64,000 bases of DNA, from the NCBI GenBank assembly GCA_012960315.1, contig DUBN01000078.1, forward strand, positions 1 to 64,000. Direction: 5' to 3'. The notes under the pieces were generated by a model. That model searched no databases and had not been told where the DNA came from. It was given only the letters and a program-made list of their open reading frames with translations. The stretch is from Acidimicrobiia bacterium (lineage in GTDB: Bacteria; Actinomycetota; Acidimicrobiia; Acidimicrobiales; Poriferisodalaceae). Below, in pieces: positions 6,985 through 59,805 of this stretch; position 1 is the stretch's first letter; the number at the start of each line of letters is the position of its first letter. Both the position numbers and the translations under genes were made by a program.

Positions 6985-6998
6985 ATAAGTTGCTGAGG

Positions 6999-7556
6999 AT
7001 GCCAACGGTGAGTGAAGAAAACCAACACATAACAAGTACAAAGAACCAAATATTAGAAAACGCGCGTGAGTTGTTCGCCATACATGGCTATGACGGGACT
7101 TCCATTCGTCAATTGACCTCCAGCCTGGACATCACGCCAGCCGCTCTCTACTACCACTTCGCTTCTAAGAATGATGTGCTTGAGGGCCTAGCTGCGACGT
7201 TACATGACGGTAGCGACGCTCTTCTTGACCGAATCAGTCATTTCGATCAAAGCCACCAAGCCATGCGTGAAGCACTCAATCAGTATTACGACTTACTTGC
7301 CGACGATATCCACGTGTTCCGTTTGGTGTACAACGACGCGGCAATTCAACACAGCCCTATCGGACATAGATTGCGGGCACAGGCTCGGGAGTTCTACACC
7401 TATCTGGTTGGACCAGATCCTTCGGTCGAAGATCGTATGCGAGCGGCGGGAGCTGTCGGCATCATCCGGCTCTCATTAGAACAACGAGGCATGGAGCCAG
7501 TAAAACATAGAAACGTCATCGTTGACCGAGCTTTTCGCGTGATGACCGACACGTAG
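6999..7556 (+). CDS. TetR/AcrR family transcriptional regulator
   Basis: A protein of about 185 residues with an N-terminal TetR DNA-binding domain: ILENARELFAIHGYDGTSIRQL, then the helix-turn-helix SSLDITPAALYYHFASKNDVL. The C-terminal ligand-binding domain is all-helical and not assignable to a ligand. The ATG at 6999 is used. A GTG at 7008 has a better-spaced GAGG (6995-6998) and a TTG at 6990 is also in frame, so the exact start is open. It is divergent from coxS-coxM and probably regulates that unit. It faces ftsB, with a short hairpin-like repeat between them. Confidence 0.9.
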   Translation: MPTVSEENQHITSTKNQILENARELFAIHGYDGTSIRQLTSSLDITPAALYYHFASKNDVLEGLAATLHDGSDALLDRISHFDQSHQAMREALNQYYDLLADDIHVFRLVYNDAAIQHSPIGHRLRAQAREFYTYLVGPDPSVEDRMRAAGAVGIIRLSLEQRGMEPVKHRNVIVDRAFRVMTDT

Positions 7557-47912: not shown

Positions 47913-49772
47913 ATGCACATTGAGAAGATCCAGAGTCCGGCAGATCTGCGTGCACTTGACGACGATCAGCTTTTAGAACTTTGCGAAGAGATCCGAGAAT
48001 TTTTGGTTGATGCGGTGTCTCGCACCGGGGGTCATCTGGGATCCAACTTGGGAGCGGTCGAGTTAACCATCGCCGTGCACCGAATTTTCGAATCTCCTCG
48101 CGATGCGATTGTGTGGGACACCGGCCATCAGGCCTACGTGCATAAAATCCTCACAGGTCGGGCGGCTGGATTTGACACGCTGCGGCAAAGGCACGGCTTA
48201 TCTGGCTATCCCAATCCCGCAGAATCCGAACATGACTTAGTTGAGAACAGTCACGCTTCCGCTTCTTTAAGTTGGGCGTCGGGTCTCGCTACTGGCTTTG
48301 AACTGACGGACCACCAGCATCGTCGAGTCGTCGCGATTATTGGCGACGGCTCGATGACTGGAGGCATGGCCTTCGAAGCTCTGAACAACCTTGGTCACTA
48401 TGGCCAGCGCGCAGTCATAATTCTGAATGACAACGGAAGGTCGTACGCTCCCACCGTAAGCAGGCTGGCAACGGTGATGTCACGGCTGCGTCAGTCCCCG
48501 AATTACCTCAAGGGGCGGCAAGCGGTGACCAACATTTTGGACCGTTTACCTCTAGGCGTCGAGGTTAAGCGTGGTTTGTCAGGAGCAGCGGCTGCAATGC
48601 GGGAGATGTGGGAGCCGCCCGCTTTTTTCGAAACGCTAGGGGTGCGTTACCTGGGTCCAATTGATGGACACGATATCGCCGCGCTGGAGTCCGCTCTCCG
48701 CGATGCCTCGTCCTACGAAGATGGCCCCATCGTTGTCCATGTCCTCACCGATAAAGGACGCGGTTACGCCCCCGCCGAAGCCGACGAGGAAAAACACCTC
48801 CACGACATCGGTCTCTTCGATCCCGCTACCGGTAACTCACCCTCTGCTGGAGGCGCGAACTTCACTACTGAATTCAGTAGTGCTTTGTTAGACATAGCGG
48901 ACCGCCGCGCTGATGTTGTGGCCATTACCGCTGCAATGCCTGGATCGACAGGGCTAATCCCATTTCAGGATCGTTACCCGGACCGCTTCTTTGATGTTGG
49001 TATCGCCGAACAGCATGCGCTGACGTCGGCTGCCGGTATGGCCCGGGCAGGATTGCGCCCGTTCGTAGCGATTTATTCAACTTTCTTGACACGCGGCTTC
49101 GATCAGGTGATGTACGACATCGGATTGCATCAGCTGCCCGTCATCATCTGTATCGATAGGGCGGGGGTAACCGGTCCCGATGGAGCGTCACATCACGGGA
49201 TTCATGACATCGCTATGTACGCCCGTGTACCAGGGATGACTATTTTGGCTCCCTCATCAATTCAAGAACTTTCTGCAATGTTGGAGCAGGCACTAGAAAT
49301 AGACGACGGGCCCGTTGCAATCCGTTGGCCCAAAGGTAATGCTCGAGAGTCGCACGTCGTTGGGAACGGATTAAGCGCCCGACAAGTTCGAGAAGGACGT
49401 GACGTTGCGGTCCTGGCGGCTGGACCAATGTTGCAAGCGGCAGAAGCCGCGGCGGATCTCCTCACACAAGAGGGCGTTGACGCAGCTATTTGGGATCCGA
49501 GGGTTCTCAAACCAGTTGACCGCGACATGATTCGTTCAGTGATCGATTTACCTCTCGTTGTCACCGTTGAGGACGGCAGCAGAGTTGGAGGTTTCGGCAG
49601 TCTCGTAGCAGATGCCTTGCAACGCCGGCAGGGTCAAATTCCTCGGTTGTTGCAGCTAGGCACTCCAGATGAATATTTGCCTCACGGGACCGCCGCCGAG
49701 TTACACGCCGAGTTGGGTCTTGATGCTTCTGGCATAGCCGCTGAAGTCATTAAGGCTCTTGAATCCTGCTGA
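47913..49772 (+). CDS. dxs: 1-deoxy-D-xylulose-5-phosphate synthase
   Basis: A 619-residue thiamine-diphosphate enzyme, the first step of the MEP isoprenoid pathway. Visible are TGGHLGSNLGAVELTIAVH, WDTGHQAYVHKILTGR, the ThDP motif GDGSMTGGMAFEALNNLG with ILNDN, the transketolase glutamate in DVGIAEQHALTSAAGMA, and IDRAGVTGPDGASHHG. The length is normal. It follows the flippase-like and PAP2 genes and ends facing the thiolase, with an 11-bp inverted repeat between. Confidence 0.97.
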   Translation: MHIEKIQSPADLRALDDDQLLELCEEIREFLVDAVSRTGGHLGSNLGAVELTIAVHRIFESPRDAIVWDTGHQAYVHKILTGRAAGFDTLRQRHGLSGYPNPAESEHDLVENSHASASLSWASGLATGFELTDHQHRRVVAIIGDGSMTGGMAFEALNNLGHYGQRAVIILNDNGRSYAPTVSRLATVMSRLRQSPNYLKGRQAVTNILDRLPLGVEVKRGLSGAAAAMREMWEPPAFFETLGVRYLGPIDGHDIAALESALRDASSYEDGPIVVHVLTDKGRGYAPAEADEEKHLHDIGLFDPATGNSPSAGGANFTTEFSSALLDIADRRADVVAITAAMPGSTGLIPFQDRYPDRFFDVGIAEQHALTSAAGMARAGLRPFVAIYSTFLTRGFDQVMYDIGLHQLPVIICIDRAGVTGPDGASHHGIHDIAMYARVPGMTILAPSSIQELSAMLEQALEIDDGPVAIRWPKGNARESHVVGNGLSARQVREGRDVAVLAAGPMLQAAEAAADLLTQEGVDAAIWDPRVLKPVDRDMIRSVIDLPLVVTVEDGSRVGGFGSLVADALQRRQGQIPRLLQLGTPDEYLPHGTAAELHAELGLDASGIAAEVIKALESC

Positions 49773-49830: not shown

Positions 49831-49871
49831 CAACGACCGCTCATCCCCATGGCCGGGACAAGCGGTCGTTG
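49831..49871. terminator. 11-bp inverted repeat between convergent dxs and thiolase genes
   Basis: CAACGACCGCT and AGCGGTCGTTG are perfect complements separated by 19 nt, in the 120-nt gap between two converging genes. The strength and position fit a bidirectional terminator, although no T-run follows on either strand. Confidence 0.5.
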
Positions 49872-49892: not shown

Positions 49893-51083
49893 CTAGCCCA
49901 CTTCGGAACCGACGACCGCGACGAACGACACGCAAGCCCCGGGTTGGCCACCAAGGTTATGAGTTAAACCAAGTGTCCGATCGGAGTCAATCTGGCGCTC
50001 TGGAGGTGCTTCACCCCGTAGCTGCAGCCAACACTCAAATAGCATTCGCAAGCCAGAGGCGCCGATTGGGTGGCCGAAGCTCTTGAGTCCGCCGTCTGGG
50101 TTTACCGGCAGATCGCCGTCAAGGTCAAATGTTCCGTTGAGGGCCTCTTTCCAGGCTGTTCCCTCTTCTGCGAAGCCCAAATCTTCCATAAGGACCAACT
50201 CGGTTGGAGTAAAGCAGTCATGGACCTCAGCCATCGCTATTTGACTACGTGGATCGCTAATACCGGCCTGTTTATAGGCCTCCTCCGCTGAGGTGCGTAC
50301 TTCGCGGAACGTTGTGTAGTCATAGCTGGGGTCTAGGGCCCCGGTTGCTGGTCCAGAAGAGAAGCTCAACGCCTTCACATAGAGCGGCTTATCGGTATAG
50401 CGATGGGCATCTTCTGCTCGCACAATTACGGCTGCTGCCGAGCCGTCGCTTACCCCGGAGCAATCAAAAATTCCCAGAGGGCCCGCTACGAGCGGAGAGG
50501 CAGCGATGGTCTCTTTAGCCACTTCTTTGCGGAATTGTGCCCGCGGGTTCAGAGCACCGTTTTTGTGGTTCTTCCAAGCGATGCGAGTAAGTACTTCTTT
50601 CATCGTCTCTTCGTCGAGACCATGCTTGTGGGCGTAGGCCGGCGCGAGAAGACTGAAGGTTGCTGGCGCCGTAAGCGATGAATCAGTTCCGTCGCTTGGG
50701 GGCCGACTTCCGGTAAGTCCGGAGTAACCGCTGTCCTTGAGCTTTTCCACTCCGATAGCCATGACGACGTCATATGCGCCAGACGCCACTGCATAGCAAG
50801 CATTTCTGAATGCCTCTGATCCCGTTGCGCACATGTTCTCTACGCGGGTAACCGGTTTGTAGTCGATTTGTAGTGGCTTTGAGAGAGTGAGTCCCGATAC
50901 ACCCGATCCCATAGTCCCTAGCCAGAAGGCGTCGATGTCGTCCTGGATTACCCCAGCTGAGGCATACGCCTCGTGTGCCGCGTCGATGAGCAGGTCATCG
51001 GCGCCCTTATCCCAGCGCTCGCCGAAGGGCGTGCAGCCCATACCGACGATGGCGACTTGGTCCTTTATGCCATGAGAGGCCAT
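49893..51083 (-). CDS. Thiolase family protein (SCP-x/acetyl-CoA acetyltransferase type)
   Basis: A 396-residue thiolase. The nucleophile Cys85 lies in VENMCATGSEAFRNACY; the other catalytic regions are AEVHDCFTPTELVL and KSFGHPIGASGLRML. The final Cys motif is replaced by GGQPGACVSFV, which keeps a Cys. These are features of the SCP-x-like thiolases that work with DUF35 partners. It should cleave or form 3-oxoacyl-CoAs, substrate unknown. The start at 51083 is preceded by AAAAGGGAC. The HMG-CoA-synthase/OB-fold gene lies 76 nt upstream, with two palindromes in between. Confidence 0.9.
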   Translation of the reverse strand: MASHGIKDQVAIVGMGCTPFGERWDKGADDLLIDAAHEAYASAGVIQDDIDAFWLGTMGSGVSGLTLSKPLQIDYKPVTRVENMCATGSEAFRNACYAVASGAYDVVMAIGVEKLKDSGYSGLTGSRPPSDGTDSSLTAPATFSLLAPAYAHKHGLDEETMKEVLTRIAWKNHKNGALNPRAQFRKEVAKETIAASPLVAGPLGIFDCSGVSDGSAAAVIVRAEDAHRYTDKPLYVKALSFSSGPATGALDPSYDYTTFREVRTSAEEAYKQAGISDPRSQIAMAEVHDCFTPTELVLMEDLGFAEEGTAWKEALNGTFDLDGDLPVNPDGGLKSFGHPIGASGLRMLFECWLQLRGEAPPERQIDSDRTLGLTHNLGGQPGACVSFVAVVGSEVG

Positions 51084-51104
51084 GTCCCTTTTCCTTTGTC
51101 GTGT

Positions 51105-51121
51105 TCTACCAGTTTGGTAGA
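51105..51121. promoter_or_regulatory. Palindrome upstream of the thiolase gene (site 1)
   Basis: TCTACCA-GTT-TGGTAGA, a perfect 7-bp inverted repeat with a 3-nt centre, 22-38 nt before the thiolase ATG. Size and position fit an operator for a TetR- or FadR-type regulator. Confidence 0.5.
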
Positions 51122-51128
51122 TAAAGAT

Positions 51129-51146
51129 GTATCCGTGCACGGATAC
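51129..51146. promoter_or_regulatory. Palindrome upstream of the thiolase gene (site 2)
   Basis: GTATCCGTGCACGGATAC is a perfect 18-bp palindrome, 46-63 nt before the thiolase ATG. Its centre is about 24-25 bp from that of site 1. It lies in the gap after the OB-fold gene and is a strong candidate binding site for a dimeric regulator. Confidence 0.55.
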
Positions 51147-51159
51147 TAGTTGTGTCCGC

Positions 51160-52557
51160 TCAATCTGCGAGTGGGCGAGCCTTCCAAAAGTAGTTGTGAA
51201 TGCCTTGTGCGGTGAACAAGCGGCGGAATGTCATTTCCACGCGGTCTCCGATTTTGACTTCGTTCGGGTCGACGTCAGTCATCTCTGCCTGAAATCTTCC
51301 CCCTCCATCAAAGTCGATAACCACAGCAACGGTTGGGGGAGACAACGAAAACGCCAGGTAGTCAACGGTGAATGTTGTAATAGTGGCGGGTACATCCGCC
51401 ATCCTGATTCGTTCCATATCGTCGACCGCTCCACCATCCATCGAAACCCTCATTGGTGGCAGGTGGATCGCTCCAGAAGATCGGTCGCGTGAGCCAACGA
51501 ACGCGTACTTCCAATCCTCAGATCGAGATGTTGGAGGTGCGCCAGGACGATCGGGGTCTGGACGCCGTGGCGGTTCGCGATCAAGGAAACCGCGCCATGT
51601 GAGATAAAGGTTGTATTCGAGGTTGTCGCTTCCGGCTGCGATTTGAGATTCGACGGTCGCGAATGGTGTGTAGTCGGCTATGGCATCGGTTGTACGCATG
51701 ACGTTGGCGTAGGCGCCATCAGCAAGGTGCACACACAGAATGGTTTCGCCTGGTTCGGCTTGATCAAGAACTGATGCAACGAGAACCGGAAGTTGAGCCG
51801 CCCCTGGATTGCCGATGCGCCCGGTGAGATCGTCAACCAATTTGTCACCGGCGATCTTCGACAAACTTCGTACTGCTCGCGCATGCAAGCCAGCGATGAC
51901 CACCTTGTCAATATCTTCCATCCCGATGTTGGCAGATTTGGTTGCTCGCTCTATCGCGTCTTCCGCTAGCGCCAAATATGCCTGTTCCCCGAACCGTTCC
52001 TCCCATATACGGCTTGAGGTATCACCGGGAAGCCGGTAGCGATCAAGGAATTCACCCGTGGAAGCTGCGAACCCCAGCGTATGAGCGAGAACGGGAGCGT
52101 CTTGGTCATCACCGAAGATGACCGCTGCAGCTCCGTCACCACCGTTGCTCTCATCGTTGCTAGTGGGATTACCGGTACGTAGATCGGATACGACAGCCAT
52201 TGATATACCTGGGGTGCCCTTGGCGCCGAGAAGTGCAGCTTCAGCCGATCGAGCTGATCCACCGGCATCGACCGCCCATGTGTCTTGTGGAAGATCAAGC
52301 GCAGCCTGAATAGCTGTCGCATTGGTTTTGTCCAGATAGGCGGGGTTTGCAGTGGCGAACCAAATCGAAGATGGCGTTACCGTGCTTCCGCGCAGGGCAT
52401 TACGGGCAGCTTCGACGCCCATGGTGGTGGTGTCTTCGTCGTAGCCAGCTACGGCACGATGACCGCGCCCTCCTCCTGCCCCCATTGCCGCGGTGATCTT
52501 CGAACGATCTAACCGGTAGTAGGGCACGTAGGTGCCATAGCCAATAATGCCTCTCAC
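51160..52557 (-). CDS. HMG-CoA synthase-like protein fused to a DUF35 OB-fold, catalytic and zinc cysteines lost
   Basis: A 465-residue two-part protein. Residues 1 to about 330 follow the thiolase-fold HMG-CoA synthase pattern (GIIGYGTYVPYYRL, DEDTTTMGVEAARNAL, NGGDGAAAVIFGD). The nucleophile region reads AVDAGGSARSAEAALL (95-110) with no Cys. Residues from about 335 are DUF35-like: a degenerate ribbon GSRDRSSGAIHLPPMRV then SMDGG, where family members have four Cys, followed by an OB-fold ending GIHNYFWKARP. In archaea, thiolase, DUF35 and HMG-CoA synthase form one complex that channels acetoacetyl-CoA. Here the fused protein is probably a non-catalytic scaffold for the neighbouring thiolase. 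The ATG at 52557 follows GGGGG. Confidence 0.82.
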   Translation of the reverse strand: MRGIIGYGTYVPYYRLDRSKITAAMGAGGGRGHRAVAGYDEDTTTMGVEAARNALRGSTVTPSSIWFATANPAYLDKTNATAIQAALDLPQDTWAVDAGGSARSAEAALLGAKGTPGISMAVVSDLRTGNPTSNDESNGGDGAAAVIFGDDQDAPVLAHTLGFAASTGEFLDRYRLPGDTSSRIWEERFGEQAYLALAEDAIERATKSANIGMEDIDKVVIAGLHARAVRSLSKIAGDKLVDDLTGRIGNPGAAQLPVLVASVLDQAEPGETILCVHLADGAYANVMRTTDAIADYTPFATVESQIAAGSDNLEYNLYLTWRGFLDREPPRRPDPDRPGAPPTSRSEDWKYAFVGSRDRSSGAIHLPPMRVSMDGGAVDDMERIRMADVPATITTFTVDYLAFSLSPPTVAVVIDFDGGGRFQAEMTDVDPNEVKIGDRVEMTFRRLFTAQGIHNYFWKARPLAD

Positions 52558-52638
52558 ATCGCCCCCATGGAGTTCAGTCGTACCCTGAGTCTAGGCAGCG
52601 GCTATGAGGCGACGCCATGTCGTGTGAAACTCATTCGC

Positions 52639-53256
52639 CTAGGTGGTAGCGAAATAGGGATTTTCGCCGGATGTGTGGTCTGTTATATCGACGACGTTTT
52701 CGACTCCATCAAGAAGCTCGATCAAAGTTTTTTCGATACCAGCCGTGACGGTCGCGTTAGCCATGCCACAACCTTGGCAACCTCCACCCAACTTGACCAG
52801 AACTGTGGAGCCTTCCACGCGGACCAGTTCCGCGTATCCGCCGTGCGCCGCTATCGATGGGTTGATTCGCTTGACCAGCACCTCTTGGACTTGTTCTTCA
52901 AGTGTTCCTGACAAATCCAAGGTTGCGTTTGGTCCAAGCTCGGGTCGATTCGGGTTGCGCAGCACCAGACCGGCCTGGTTGGAGTTGCTCGGGAGGTCTA
53001 GCGTCGCGCCCTCTAGTTTGGCGACGTCTTTTCCTGGAGTTAAAACTGTTAAGCCCCCACCGACGTGCGTCGGTAAGTCATCGGCATCCGCTTCACTGAG
53101 CACTTCAAAGGCTAGGTCGTACGAGAAATCGACTCCTTGGACTCCGGTGACTTCGATCCTCAGGGCTAGTTGTTCCGCCTCATCTTCACCGGCACGTAGT
53201 TCAAGAACTTTTTCAAGCGCCGCTTCTGTAACGGTAACGATTTCTCGTTCAGACAT
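52639..53256 (-). CDS. nfuA: NfuA-like iron-sulfur carrier protein
   Basis: A 205-residue protein. The N-terminal A-type-like domain (VTEAALEKVLELRAGEDEA, LALRIEVTGVQGVDFSYDL) has no cluster-binding Cys, as in E. coli NfuA. The C-terminal NifU domain has INPSIAAHGGYAELVRVEG and the CxxC site at Cys160 and Cys163 (KLGGGCQGCGMA). It should carry Fe-S clusters to client proteins such as aconitase or the cox-type enzyme. TAAGCT 6 nt before the ATG suggests a leaderless message. Confidence 0.93.
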   Translation of the reverse strand: MSEREIVTVTEAALEKVLELRAGEDEAEQLALRIEVTGVQGVDFSYDLAFEVLSEADADDLPTHVGGGLTVLTPGKDVAKLEGATLDLPSNSNQAGLVLRNPNRPELGPNATLDLSGTLEEQVQEVLVKRINPSIAAHGGYAELVRVEGSTVLVKLGGGCQGCGMANATVTAGIEKTLIELLDGVENVVDITDHTSGENPYFATT

Positions 53257-53262
53257 ACGATC

Positions 53263-53268
53263 AGCTTA
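53263..53268 (-). promoter_or_regulatory. Candidate -10 box for leaderless nfuA
   Basis: On the minus strand TAAGCT is followed by 6 nt and the ATG at 53256. There is no Shine-Dalgarno sequence in front of this gene. Confidence 0.35.
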
Positions 53269-53370
53269 CAGATTTGACTCTGGTGAGACATGGGACACGC
53301 AGCCATGACCCGAGTAATGTCCTTGGCTTATACCGATCCGACCATCGGGACGATGAACGAGTGAGGATTT

Positions 53371-54372: not shown

Positions 54373-54798
54373 CTATGTGGCTGCTCTTCTCATTGGGATG
54401 TGAGGGATCCCATCTTCATCGAACTCCGGACCACTTGGAACAAAACCCAGCTGGGTGTACCAGTCACTCAAATACGCCTGTGCCGAGAGCACCCAGGGTC
54501 CATTCGTCGTTGACAGCACGTGGTTAATGAGTCGCCGACTCAATCCGTTGGAGCGAGCATCGCGTCGAGTGACGACCCGACCGATTCGCAAACAGTCGAG
54601 TTCCTCAATGATTCGTACGTATGAAGCAAGTCCATCGTGATCATCAATCCAAAGATGTAGCGCTTCGCTATCCAATGCATCAATTTCTGAATAAGCACAT
54701 TGTTGTTCAACTACAAAGACCTCAACTCGAAGCCGAAGGATCTCATAGAGACGTTCCAAGGAAAGTTCTTCAAAATTTGAAGAGTGGACATCATTCAC
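54373..54798 (-). CDS. ElaA-like GNAT family N-acetyltransferase
   Basis: A 141-residue GNAT protein of the ElaA subfamily. It has FEELSLERLYEILRLRVEVFVVEQQCAYSEID, the family's N-terminal signature, then the acetyl-CoA loop RIGRVVTRRDARSNGLSRRLI (Arg-x-x-Gly-x-Ser variant) and AQAYLSDWYTQLGFVP. The substrate is not known. Its ATG overlaps the stop of a small membrane protein gene (ATGA). Confidence 0.92.
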   Translation of the reverse strand: MNDVHSSNFEELSLERLYEILRLRVEVFVVEQQCAYSEIDALDSEALHLWIDDHDGLASYVRIIEELDCLRIGRVVTRRDARSNGLSRRLINHVLSTTNGPWVLSAQAYLSDWYTQLGFVPSGPEFDEDGIPHIPMRRAAT

Positions 54799-54932
54799 AA
54801 TGCGGCCATCAGGGCCGAGAAGCCAGCAAGAACCATCGCTGCTGCCACCAACACTGCTGTCCAGTGAATCAGCGGCCGTCGGTGACGCAAAGACCGCAAG
54901 TCACCACTGGAGTCATGTGTCCGTCGGTTCAT
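54795..54932 (-). CDS. Small single-span membrane protein (unknown)
   Basis: A 45-residue frame, MNRRTHDSSGDLRSLRHRRP followed by LIHWTAVLVAAAMVLAGFSALMAAL. A basic, Ser/Arg-rich N-terminus leads into one membrane span at the very C-terminus. It is not assignable to a family. Support for a real gene: its TGA overlaps the elaA ATG, the 4-nt overlap common in this genome, and it fills the gap between elaA and the ABC-F gene without overlapping the latter. No ribosome site is visible. Confidence 0.5.
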   Translation of the reverse strand: MNRRTHDSSGDLRSLRHRRPLIHWTAVLVAAAMVLAGFSALMAAL

Positions 54933-57304: not shown

Positions 57305-58987
57305 TCAAATAAATGGTTTTTCTTGGTATCGCCCAAAGACGTCAGCGAGAGTCGTCATGATTTCGCCAACTGTGGCATGCGTTCTGACCGTTTCGATCAG
57401 CGACGGCATCAGATTCGCATCAGTCTCTGCAACGCGACTCAACGCAATGAGAGCTTCATCTACCGCCGGCTGACTCCGGTCACTCTTGATTTGCTGAAGG
57501 CGCTTTATCTGACGTTTTTCATCGTCAGGAGTGATTTTTAGAAGATCAATTTGGTCGTCTTTATTTCCCTCCGTGAAGTCGTTCACCCCCACGACAACAC
57601 GCCTGCCGGAGTTGATCTTTTTCTCAAAGTCGTAGGCGGCATCGGCAATGTTTCCCTGGTACCAACCTTCATCAATCAGATGAAAGGCACCTTCGAGCAT
57701 CGACCCGCCTCCCGCCTCAGCGATGTGGCTAAACATGGCCTCGGCTTCAACCTCGAGTTGATCGGTGAGTTCCTCCACGAACCAACTCCCACCGAGGGGG
57801 TCAACGACATCCGTTACCCCGGTCTCGTGGGCGATGATCTGTTGGGTGCGCAGAGCGATGCGAGCTGCCTTTTCCGTCGGCAAAGCAAGTGCCTCATCCA
57901 TTGAATTCGTATGCAGACTTTGCGTTCCGCCGAGAACACCTGCAAGAGCCTCAATCGCTGTTCGAGCGATGTTGATTTCGGGTTGCTGAGCGGTTAGTGA
58001 GACGCCAGCAGTCTGCGTATGAAAGCGCAGCATCATCGACTTCGGATCTTGAGCGCCGTAGTGCTCTTTCATCCAGCGAGCCCAAATTCGGCGCGCTGCT
58101 CGATACTTCGCGATCTCTTCGAAGAAGTCAATATGAGCATTAAAGAAGAAGCTAAGCCGCGGAGCAAAATCGTCTACCTGAAGACCCCGCTGCAATGCTG
58201 CTTCAACGTATGCAAAGCCGTTACCAAGAGTGAAAGCGAGTTCTTGAGCCGCCGTCGATCCCGCTTCTCGTATGTGATAGCCACTGATTGATACAGAGTT
58301 CCATCTAGGCATTTCGTTTTTCGAGAATTCGATGGTGTCAGCTACGAGTCGCATTGAAGGTCGTGGCGGGAAGACCCATTCTTTCTGAGCTTGGTATTCC
58401 TTGAGGATGTCGTTTTGGAGTGTTCCTCCTAAGCGAGTTCTATCTGCTCCTTGGTCTTCTGCATTTGCTACGAACATCGCCCAGATGGGCGCAGCGGGAG
58501 CGTTAATCGTCATCGACGTCGTTGTGTCCTCAAGATCAATACCGTCGTAGAGAACTCTCATATCTTCGATGGTGTCAACCGCTACGCCGCAACGACCAAC
58601 TTCTCCCACGGAGAGCACATCGTCACTATCGAGACCCATCAACGTTGGCATGTCGAAAGCGGTTGACAGTCCGCCTCCTCCTGCAGAAAGAATTTCTTTG
58701 AACCGCGCATTCGTGTCCTCGGGGGTTCCGAAGCCAGCAAACATGCGCATGGTCCACAGGCGGCCCCGGTAACCACTCGAATGAACTCCGCGGGTATAGG
58801 GGTATTGGCCAGGCCACCCGATGCGTTCGTCGGGTTCAGCATCCTCTGGGCTGTACAGCGGTTCCACTGGAATGCCGCTCATAGTTTCGTAGTCCACGTC
58901 GCGGGTCCGATCAGCCTGGTGCTCTAATTCCCACTGCTCTCGCGTCACACGTTTCTCCCAGCTACCCAATCGAGGGTTAAGCGTCAT
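57305..58987 (-). CDS. Methylmalonyl-CoA mutase family large subunit, probably isobutyryl-CoA mutase-like
   Basis: A 560-residue TIM-barrel subunit of the adenosylcobalamin mutases. It lacks the C-terminal B12-binding domain, so a separate small subunit must exist elsewhere. Core motifs are RGRLWTMRMFAGFGTPEDTN, STAFDMPTLMG, SISGYHIREAGS (the catalytic His) and RFHTQTAGVSLTAQQPEINI. At the position of the Arg that binds the methylmalonyl carboxylate (R207 in Propionibacterium) the protein has Gln (ILKEYQAQKEW). This is the isobutyryl-CoA mutase pattern. The TMY segment before the barrel reads SGY. It is therefore probably not methylmalonyl-specific. The ATG at 58987 avoids overlap with thiD. 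Confidence 0.88.
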   Translation of the reverse strand: MTLNPRLGSWEKRVTREQWELEHQADRTRDVDYETMSGIPVEPLYSPEDAEPDERIGWPGQYPYTRGVHSSGYRGRLWTMRMFAGFGTPEDTNARFKEILSAGGGGLSTAFDMPTLMGLDSDDVLSVGEVGRCGVAVDTIEDMRVLYDGIDLEDTTTSMTINAPAAPIWAMFVANAEDQGADRTRLGGTLQNDILKEYQAQKEWVFPPRPSMRLVADTIEFSKNEMPRWNSVSISGYHIREAGSTAAQELAFTLGNGFAYVEAALQRGLQVDDFAPRLSFFFNAHIDFFEEIAKYRAARRIWARWMKEHYGAQDPKSMMLRFHTQTAGVSLTAQQPEINIARTAIEALAGVLGGTQSLHTNSMDEALALPTEKAARIALRTQQIIAHETGVTDVVDPLGGSWFVEELTDQLEVEAEAMFSHIAEAGGGSMLEGAFHLIDEGWYQGNIADAAYDFEKKINSGRRVVVGVNDFTEGNKDDQIDLLKITPDDEKRQIKRLQQIKSDRSQPAVDEALIALSRVAETDANLMPSLIETVRTHATVGEIMTTLADVFGRYQEKPFI

Positions 58988-59001
58988 CAGTCTAGGTCGG
59001 C

Positions 59002-59805
59002 TTAGCCGAGGTGTCCCAGGTGGTCTATAGGTCCTTGTCCTGCGCCCAGTTTCCAATTGGCGGCGCGTCTTATGGCTTGCATCGTGAAATCTTGGGCGGC
59101 CAATACCGCATCAACGGTAGGAATCCCTTTGGCTAAGCCAGCAGCAATCGCCGCTGAGAGAGAGTCGCCGGTTCCGCGAACGTTGGTAGTTATGCAACGT
59201 TCATTTTCTATGGTGATCGTCTTGCCACCCGAAGCGATGATGTCGACCATCATGTGAGAAGCCCTCCGACCGCCGGTCAAAACCACAACTTCTGGACCCA
59301 TGCTCGCGAGTTCTAGCGCTGCATCACTAAGAGCTTGAGTGTCGTCTTCAACGGTTCTTCCTAGCAGCCGCATTGCTTCCAGATGGTTAGGGGTCACGAC
59401 TTGAGCGTGAGGAATGAGCCGTTCGGAGATCAGACGATCGATCGTTTCGCCATATAGCTCACGACCGTGTCGATCAACCATTACCGGATCGACAACTAAT
59501 GAAGGTAACGCTCCGGCCTCTGCCAACTCTGCAACCAGAAGAGTGTTTTCTTCAGAGAACAGCAATCCTGTCTTCACCGCCGCTACTTCGAAATCATCTA
59601 AAACGGATTCGACTTGAGAGCCAACGACACCAGCGGGTACAGGCATCGCTGACCGGAACTCTTGGGTGTTTTGTGATGACACAACTGTTATGGCGCACAC
59701 ACCGTGCACAGCCTGAACTGCGAACGTGCGTAAATCTGCTTGAAGGCCAGATCCCCCTCCTGAGTCTGAACCTGCGATTGTTAGTACCACTGGTGGTTGA
59801 GTCAC
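59002..59805 (-). CDS. thiD: Hydroxymethylpyrimidine/phosphomethylpyrimidine kinase
   Basis: A 267-residue ribokinase-fold enzyme of thiamine synthesis that phosphorylates HMP and HMP-P. Motifs are VLTIAGSDSGGGSGLQADLRTF, HGVCAITVVSSQNT, AVKTGLLFSE, VVDPVMVDRHGREL, VTPNHLEAMRLLG and the anion hole VRGTGDSLSAAIAAGLA (usually GTGCTLSAA; Ser replaces Cys/Thr). Starts with GTG. There is no room for a TPP riboswitch in the 52-nt gap to the divergent gene. Confidence 0.94.
   Translation of the reverse strand: MTQPPVVLTIAGSDSGGGSGLQADLRTFAVQAVHGVCAITVVSSQNTQEFRSAMPVPAGVVGSQVESVLDDFEVAAVKTGLLFSEENTLLVAELAEAGALPSLVVDPVMVDRHGRELYGETIDRLISERLIPHAQVVTPNHLEAMRLLGRTVEDDTQALSDAALELASMGPEVVVLTGGRRASHMMVDIIASGGKTITIENERCITTNVRGTGDSLSAAIAAGLAKGIPTVDAVLAAQDFTMQAIRRAANWKLGAGQGPIDHLGHLG

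Follow-up and report, generated by a model that had tools for sequence, protein, structure and literature searches.

Where a perfect 18-bp dyad precedes an acyl-CoA gene, the comparison case is the operator of a TetR- or MarR-type regulator. In archaea, an acetoacetyl-CoA thiolase, an HMG-CoA synthase and a DUF35 protein form one enzyme complex (6esq, 6et9). The ANTAR-target RNAs of actinobacteria, as far as the accessible part of PMC8164766 describes them, consist of two stem-loops with hexanucleotide loops, separated by a linker of 2–25 nt, and in most members the first loop base is A and the fourth is G. The stem-loops of selective RNA processing and stabilisation (SRPS), according to the accessible parts of PMC4423207 and PMC10311766, are hairpins that separate genes whose products are subunits of a common complex. 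Here we analyse a gene junction of an Acidimicrobiia bacterium that invites comparison with each of these systems.

The locus and its two palindromes

The window, by which we mean the whole 64,000-nt stretch of DNA analysed, belongs to a 2.82-Mb assembly of 91 contigs in which all searches of the own genome were made; the closest relatives that have names are Acidimicrobiales MAGs, of which many are marine. Its minus strand carries a gene for an HMG-CoA-synthase-like (HMGS-like) protein with a fused OB-fold (ChsH2_C/DUF35) domain (51160–52557, by domain match; stop codon at 51160–51162), followed by a gap of 76 nt (51084–51159) and by a thiolase gene (acetyl-CoA acetyltransferase, NF004810, by protein family match; 49893–51083), whose ATG at 51083 is preceded by a Shine-Dalgarno-like AAAGGA (51092–51097) that is kept in the alignments; nfuA (52639–53256) lies on the same strand. 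Where 6esq chain I has a Cys, which we take to be the catalytic residue, the aligned HMGS-like protein has Ala, and its HMGS-like domain may therefore be non-catalytic; the thiolase retains its Cys motif, NMCATGS.

Two palindromes lie in the gap: P1, GTATCCGTGCACGGATAC (51129–51146), a perfect 18-bp palindrome that as RNA makes a 7-bp hairpin with a UGCA loop, and P2, TCTACCA-GTT-TGGTAGA (51105–51121), a 7+3+7 inverted repeat. A previous reading of the sequence only (hereafter the sequence-only reading) had placed both of them correctly in this gap between co-directional genes, and the 24–25 bp that it gave as their spacing agrees with our centre-to-centre distance of 24.5 bp. That reading had also called such a pair unlikely by chance, which our counts contradict. 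The window contains 2 perfect even palindromes of at least 16 bp, namely P1 and one of 20 bp at 48863. Inverted repeats with arms of at least 7 and a loop of 3 number 11 (longer arms included; dinucleotide shuffles average 4.0), and among 60 dinucleotide shuffles of the window a palindrome of at least 18 bp arose in 9 and a close inverted-repeat pair in 21, nested repeats being counted more than once in window and shuffles alike. Symmetry alone is therefore weak evidence, and it is conservation that shows a real feature in the gap.

Compared with the systems introduced above, the junction presents the following likenesses and differences: (i) The best PDB matches of both gene products are to the archaeal complex (6esq, 6et9), in which their homologues are joined in one enzyme complex; here, in contrast, the HMGS-like protein itself carries the DUF35-type domain as a fusion, and the control element that we propose is a matter of the junction between the genes and not of their products. 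(ii) Unlike at TetR/MarR operators, there is a single site, with no adjacent regulator recognised and no second conserved site. (iii) Judged by what the accessible part of PMC8164766 gives for ANTAR-target RNAs, the 7-nt linker would fit, whereas the loop of P1 has 4 nt (6 nt with the inner pair open) and that of P2 has 3 nt, the possible 6-nt loop of P1 reads C/G-U-G-C-A-N, without the A1/G4 pattern, and P2 is not kept as a stem; neither palindrome has the loop size and loop bases of that family. (iv) As with the SRPS stem-loops of the accessible parts of PMC4423207 and PMC10311766, a hairpin lies between genes whose products belong to one complex; unlike there, the constraint enters both reading frames and the sequence of P1 is fixed. 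The covariance models of Rfam release 15 gave no match to 50950–51250 at E up to 5, and no title or opening of an abstract found in literature searches named the element.

Conservation across the junction

Genera are coded here, g1 being that of the window; P1 is carried at the same place in g1, g6, g8 and g9, and g7 and g10 serve for comparison. The thiolase is present in all 6 sampled genomes of g1 and in 36 of the 39 of the family, and in related genomes synteny is kept across all 16 genes followed around the site. A profile of the 99-nt junction gave one strong match per genome, always at the thiolase, in 19 of the 20 genomes of g1, g6, g8 and g9 (the exception, G033, is also without a thiolase match). 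The two g10 genomes were matched weakly (E 0.13), and the remaining 17 of the 39 family genomes gave no match. Seventeen of the 19 element-bearing genomes were aligned, leaving out G018, in which a contig end cuts the thiolase, and G032, in which the thiolase match begins only at codon 29. Both g10 genomes (G037 and G038) have a second thiolase copy (loci L067, L069), with 85% identity to the protein of the window; the other genes of the syntenic block do not adjoin that of G037.

In these 17 species, which span four genera, 15 of the 18 positions of P1 do not vary, and the centre of P1, TGCA, is self-complementary in every species. This is found at a divergence near saturation, the four-fold sites of the thiolase having an identity of only 0.30–0.36 between the window and g6, g8 and g9. 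The gap as a whole has a between-genus identity of 0.76, the highest of 11 gaps in the syntenic block; the runner-up (0.71, in 5 species) contains an unlisted small reading frame, and the remaining nine range from 0.23 to 0.60. The linker between P1 and the hairpin H1 described below has diverged freely (identity 0.51), which rules out a recent exchange between genera as the source of the similarity. P2 is another matter: it is a perfect palindrome only in g1, where its symmetry is retained, including a paired T-to-C/A-to-G change in three species. Beyond g1 the symmetry is lost: of the outer pairs, 59–75 forms in 6/17 species and 60–74 in 9/17, and the conserved remnant is ATC.A.CAAACT. P2 is therefore not a conserved twin site.

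The constraint does not end at the borders of the gap. Against a general level of about 0.40, the fraction of identical codons between genera reaches 0.82 for thiolase codons 1–12, 0.87 for 13–24 and 0.68 for 25–36 (rest of the thiolase, 0.27–0.54), and 0.64 for the 12 codons that close the HMGS-like gene (its other windows, 0.24–0.59). Of 5242 windows of 24 codons from 16 neighbouring genes, none scores higher than the thiolase start (0.865); the next separate ones are in the mutase gene (0.73) and in dxs (0.61). The constraint drops at thiolase codons 34–35. Taken together, these observations argue for a single element of about 220 nt, under constraint at the nucleotide level, to which the palindromes belong: the last 12 HMGS-like codons, the 76-nt gap and thiolase codons 1–34 (50980–51198, minus strand), with P1 as the best-kept part of the gap. 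Comparisons of g1 and of g7 with g10 gave 0.40–0.85 at the thiolase-start codons as against 0.30–0.32 at codons 50–100; a weaker form of the element may therefore be older. Other families, represented by 21 sequences, have no surplus of conserved codons at the thiolase start, and the many DNA matches to it there are due to high GC and a conserved protein.

Two further features of the block were observed. The start of the mutase gene (57305–59056, minus strand) is its second most synonymously constrained stretch, and an unlisted reading frame of 45 aa, perhaps a small membrane protein, lies between the ABC-F gene and the GNAT gene (54795–54932, minus strand; aligned in 7 species).

Predicted RNA structure

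The consensus fold by RNAalifold contains H1, P1, a helix at the AUG, HB, HC and a long-range helix; P2 is absent from it. H1 (51156–51174, minus strand, as are all these helices) is a 6-bp hairpin with a 7-nt loop over the stop codon of the HMGS-like gene. It is paired in 92.2% of cells, with one or two mismatches in 6 of the 17 species, and two of its pairs have changed on both sides, from A-U to G-C and, in G035, from C-G to U-A, the latter entailing a leucine-to-phenylalanine change. In the P1 hairpin, 5 of the 7 arm pairs never vary and variation is confined to the other 2. The predicted helix between the thiolase ATG (GACAUGGC) and codons 11–13 (51045–51086) is paired in 97.8% of cells and has no both-sided change. 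HB (51027–51039), a 4-bp hairpin of the form GGGY-UGYAC-RCCC at thiolase codons 15–19, has one; it is also possible in some other families, and is not formed in g10 and g7. GGCGAGC of thiolase codons 21–23 (51017–51023) has as its predicted partner GCUCGCC at the end of the HMGS-like gene (51174–51180), with 7/7 pairs in 13 of the 17 species and 6/7 in the other four, and this long-range helix probably forms. It and the start-codon helix are nearly invariant, and covariation therefore neither supports nor refutes them.

HC (50980–51004) is a 9-bp hairpin at thiolase codons 27–35, paired in 99.3% of cells, with one both-sided change and wobble changes. In it the third position of codon 29 is paired with the first of codon 33: GAT stands at codon 29 in all five species that have ATC at codon 33, a combination also present in one g10 genome. 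Both g10 genomes, which lack P1 and have a different hairpin in its place, have HC fully paired (10/10 pairs). In the 21 sequences of other families 5–9 of the 10 pairs are present, and part of HC thus follows from the protein sequence.

In the combined structure of 43 pairs, pairing holds in 97.9% of cells. Both-sided changes occur at 5 pairs, a number reached by 1 of 500 shuffles, although the changes reflect few independent events and the test leans in favour of a structure derived from the same alignment; none of six slid versions has a both-sided change. Pairs changed on both sides occur in H1, P1 and HC. Against shuffled columns, the whole region folded with z = -5.0, to which P1 and H1 contributed much, and the coding part with z = -2.3 (11 of 17 species). 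Synonymous folding tests covered 13 of the 17 aligned species and the two g10 genomes: thiolase codons 2–37 were more stable than composition-preserving synonymous permutations in 15/15 (mean z -1.30), as compared with z of -0.33, -0.59 and -0.03 in three control regions. A stronger value from gene-usage resampling was discarded as inflated by high GC3, the fairer control giving only z -1.3.

Alternative explanations

P1 could be read as a DNA operator, bound by a dimeric regulator encoded elsewhere, over an internal promoter of the thiolase. Indeed, its near-fixed arms and palindromic centre suit a hairpin no better than they suit a DNA-binding dimer: it is a perfect dyad in the window, and both its 15 invariant positions and its self-complementary centre persist at near-saturated divergence. 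TAGTAT at its left edge, which could serve as the -10-like element, fits TANNNT in 13 of the 17 species, whereas its first T is A in the other 4 and a scan for consensus promoters found none in the gap. The search for a regulator and for further sites also weighs against an operator. In the own genome, allowing up to 3 mismatches, P1 has a single further match, with 3 mismatches and inside a reading frame, and no regulon of P1 sites was found there. The sampled genomes of the family, searched at up to 1 mismatch, likewise have no P1 copy at any other place, and none was found before a regulator gene. Of 397 sampled genomes of the order, 7 have a match at up to 1 mismatch, six of them from the family of the window and at the thiolase, and the seventh, with 1 mismatch, at another place. 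The exact pattern occurs in 44 stretches among 84,980 genomes, where by our own arithmetic chance would give about 60 (16 fixed bases, even composition). Fifteen of these stretches also contain the thiolase gene, with P1 directly before it in 14 and an unreadable N there in L113; the remaining 29 are scattered across many phyla. P2-like sites at up to 2 mismatches are not enriched genome-wide (71 forward, 209 for the reversed control). No regulator was recognised among the 16 syntenic genes followed, four products of which were compared with Pfam. A TetR-like reading frame, assigned by eye, lies at 6990–7556, 44 kb from the site. An operator also leaves the constraint in about 100 nt of the thiolase and in the HMGS-like codons unexplained, and we regard it as a rather unlikely account of P1.

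The sequence-only reading had gone further, giving the thiolase its own regulated promoter with two regulator dimers or two different regulators. Of this, a conserved regulatory feature in the gap survives. The two sites do not, one dyad being kept and the other broken; two dimers or two regulators also sit badly with a neighbourhood in which no regulator was recognised, with the lack of any further P1 site, and with a constraint that runs into both genes. As a separate observation, TAGACT-like hexamers are kept before the HMGS-like (52558–52638), mutase (59000–59110) and nfuA (53257–53370) genes on the minus strand, and are possibly the -10 element of the lineage.

The hairpins might instead be intercistronic signals of processing or stability of the SRPS kind, setting the subunit ratio after mRNA cleavage, or a weak internal terminator. 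They do lie between genes of one complex, and SRPS work, in the accessible part of PMC4423207, ties intergenic processing sites to protein-complex subunits; moreover, the one terminator-like site of our scan falls at P1 on the minus strand. However, in other species P1 is not followed by a T-rich sequence (GTTCTTATC, CTGTTCATC), so that the terminator is not conserved, and an invariant P1 sequence together with 34 constrained thiolase codons exceeds what a stability hairpin needs. We consider this explanation unlikely. Another long hairpin of the block, in the convergent gap between thiolase and dxs (49831–49871; CAACGACCGCT...AGCGGTCGTTG), is conserved and varies in both arms across the clade; it has no T run and occurs once in the genome.

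Synonymous constraint in a coding region would also result from an antisense RNA or a small overlapping gene at the start of the thiolase, whose control region the palindromes would be, and one antisense frame there is stop-free in 17/17 species. This frame, however, ends at stops that differ between species and covers the gap only partly, and the HMGS-like readthrough frame varies, as judged by eye, at a second codon position in P1 while its third positions are fixed; we think such an overlap very improbable. On the same pattern, readthrough of the HMGS-like TGA was rejected, also by eye. Likewise rejected was an N-terminal extension of the thiolase from a GTG at 51140, which by eye meets an in-frame TAG in G012 and G036 and a one-base deletion in G031/G034. 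Palindromes that arose by chance, in a gap whose similarity would merely reflect closeness of the genomes, although shuffled windows give palindromes of like strength, can hardly be credited in view of four-fold identities of 0.30–0.36 to g6, g8 and g9, of far less conserved other gaps and of an H1–P1 linker at 0.51.

Discussion

The palindrome region looks more like a folded mRNA element than like a pair of repressor sites. We tentatively propose, as an account that is quite possible though short of probable, that a cis-acting element of the mRNA links translation of the thiolase to translation of its partner. In such an arrangement H1, the P1 hairpin, HC and probably the long-range helix would enclose the thiolase start. 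Ribosomes ending the HMGS-like gene would melt H1 together with the long-range helix, the thiolase start would therefore be freed, and thiolase output would thereby be tied to that of the HMGS-like partner; the sequence-specific role would fall to P1, as the binding site of a putative factor. Transcription through the gap, the long-range helix, the coupling and any factor at P1 are what we infer here. The wider claim, that this is a new structured cis-regulatory RNA of a mostly marine clade of Acidimicrobiales, coupling the thiolase to its HMGS-like/OB-fold partner and read at P1 by a putative factor, is a possibility that we put forward with more doubt than the coupling itself.

Constraint on synonymous sites can expose elements of this kind where palindrome statistics alone would not. 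The bacteria that carry this one are known almost only from metagenomes and, if our proposal is true, the balance between the subunits would be set in them at the gene junction, by a compact element that overlaps both reading frames.
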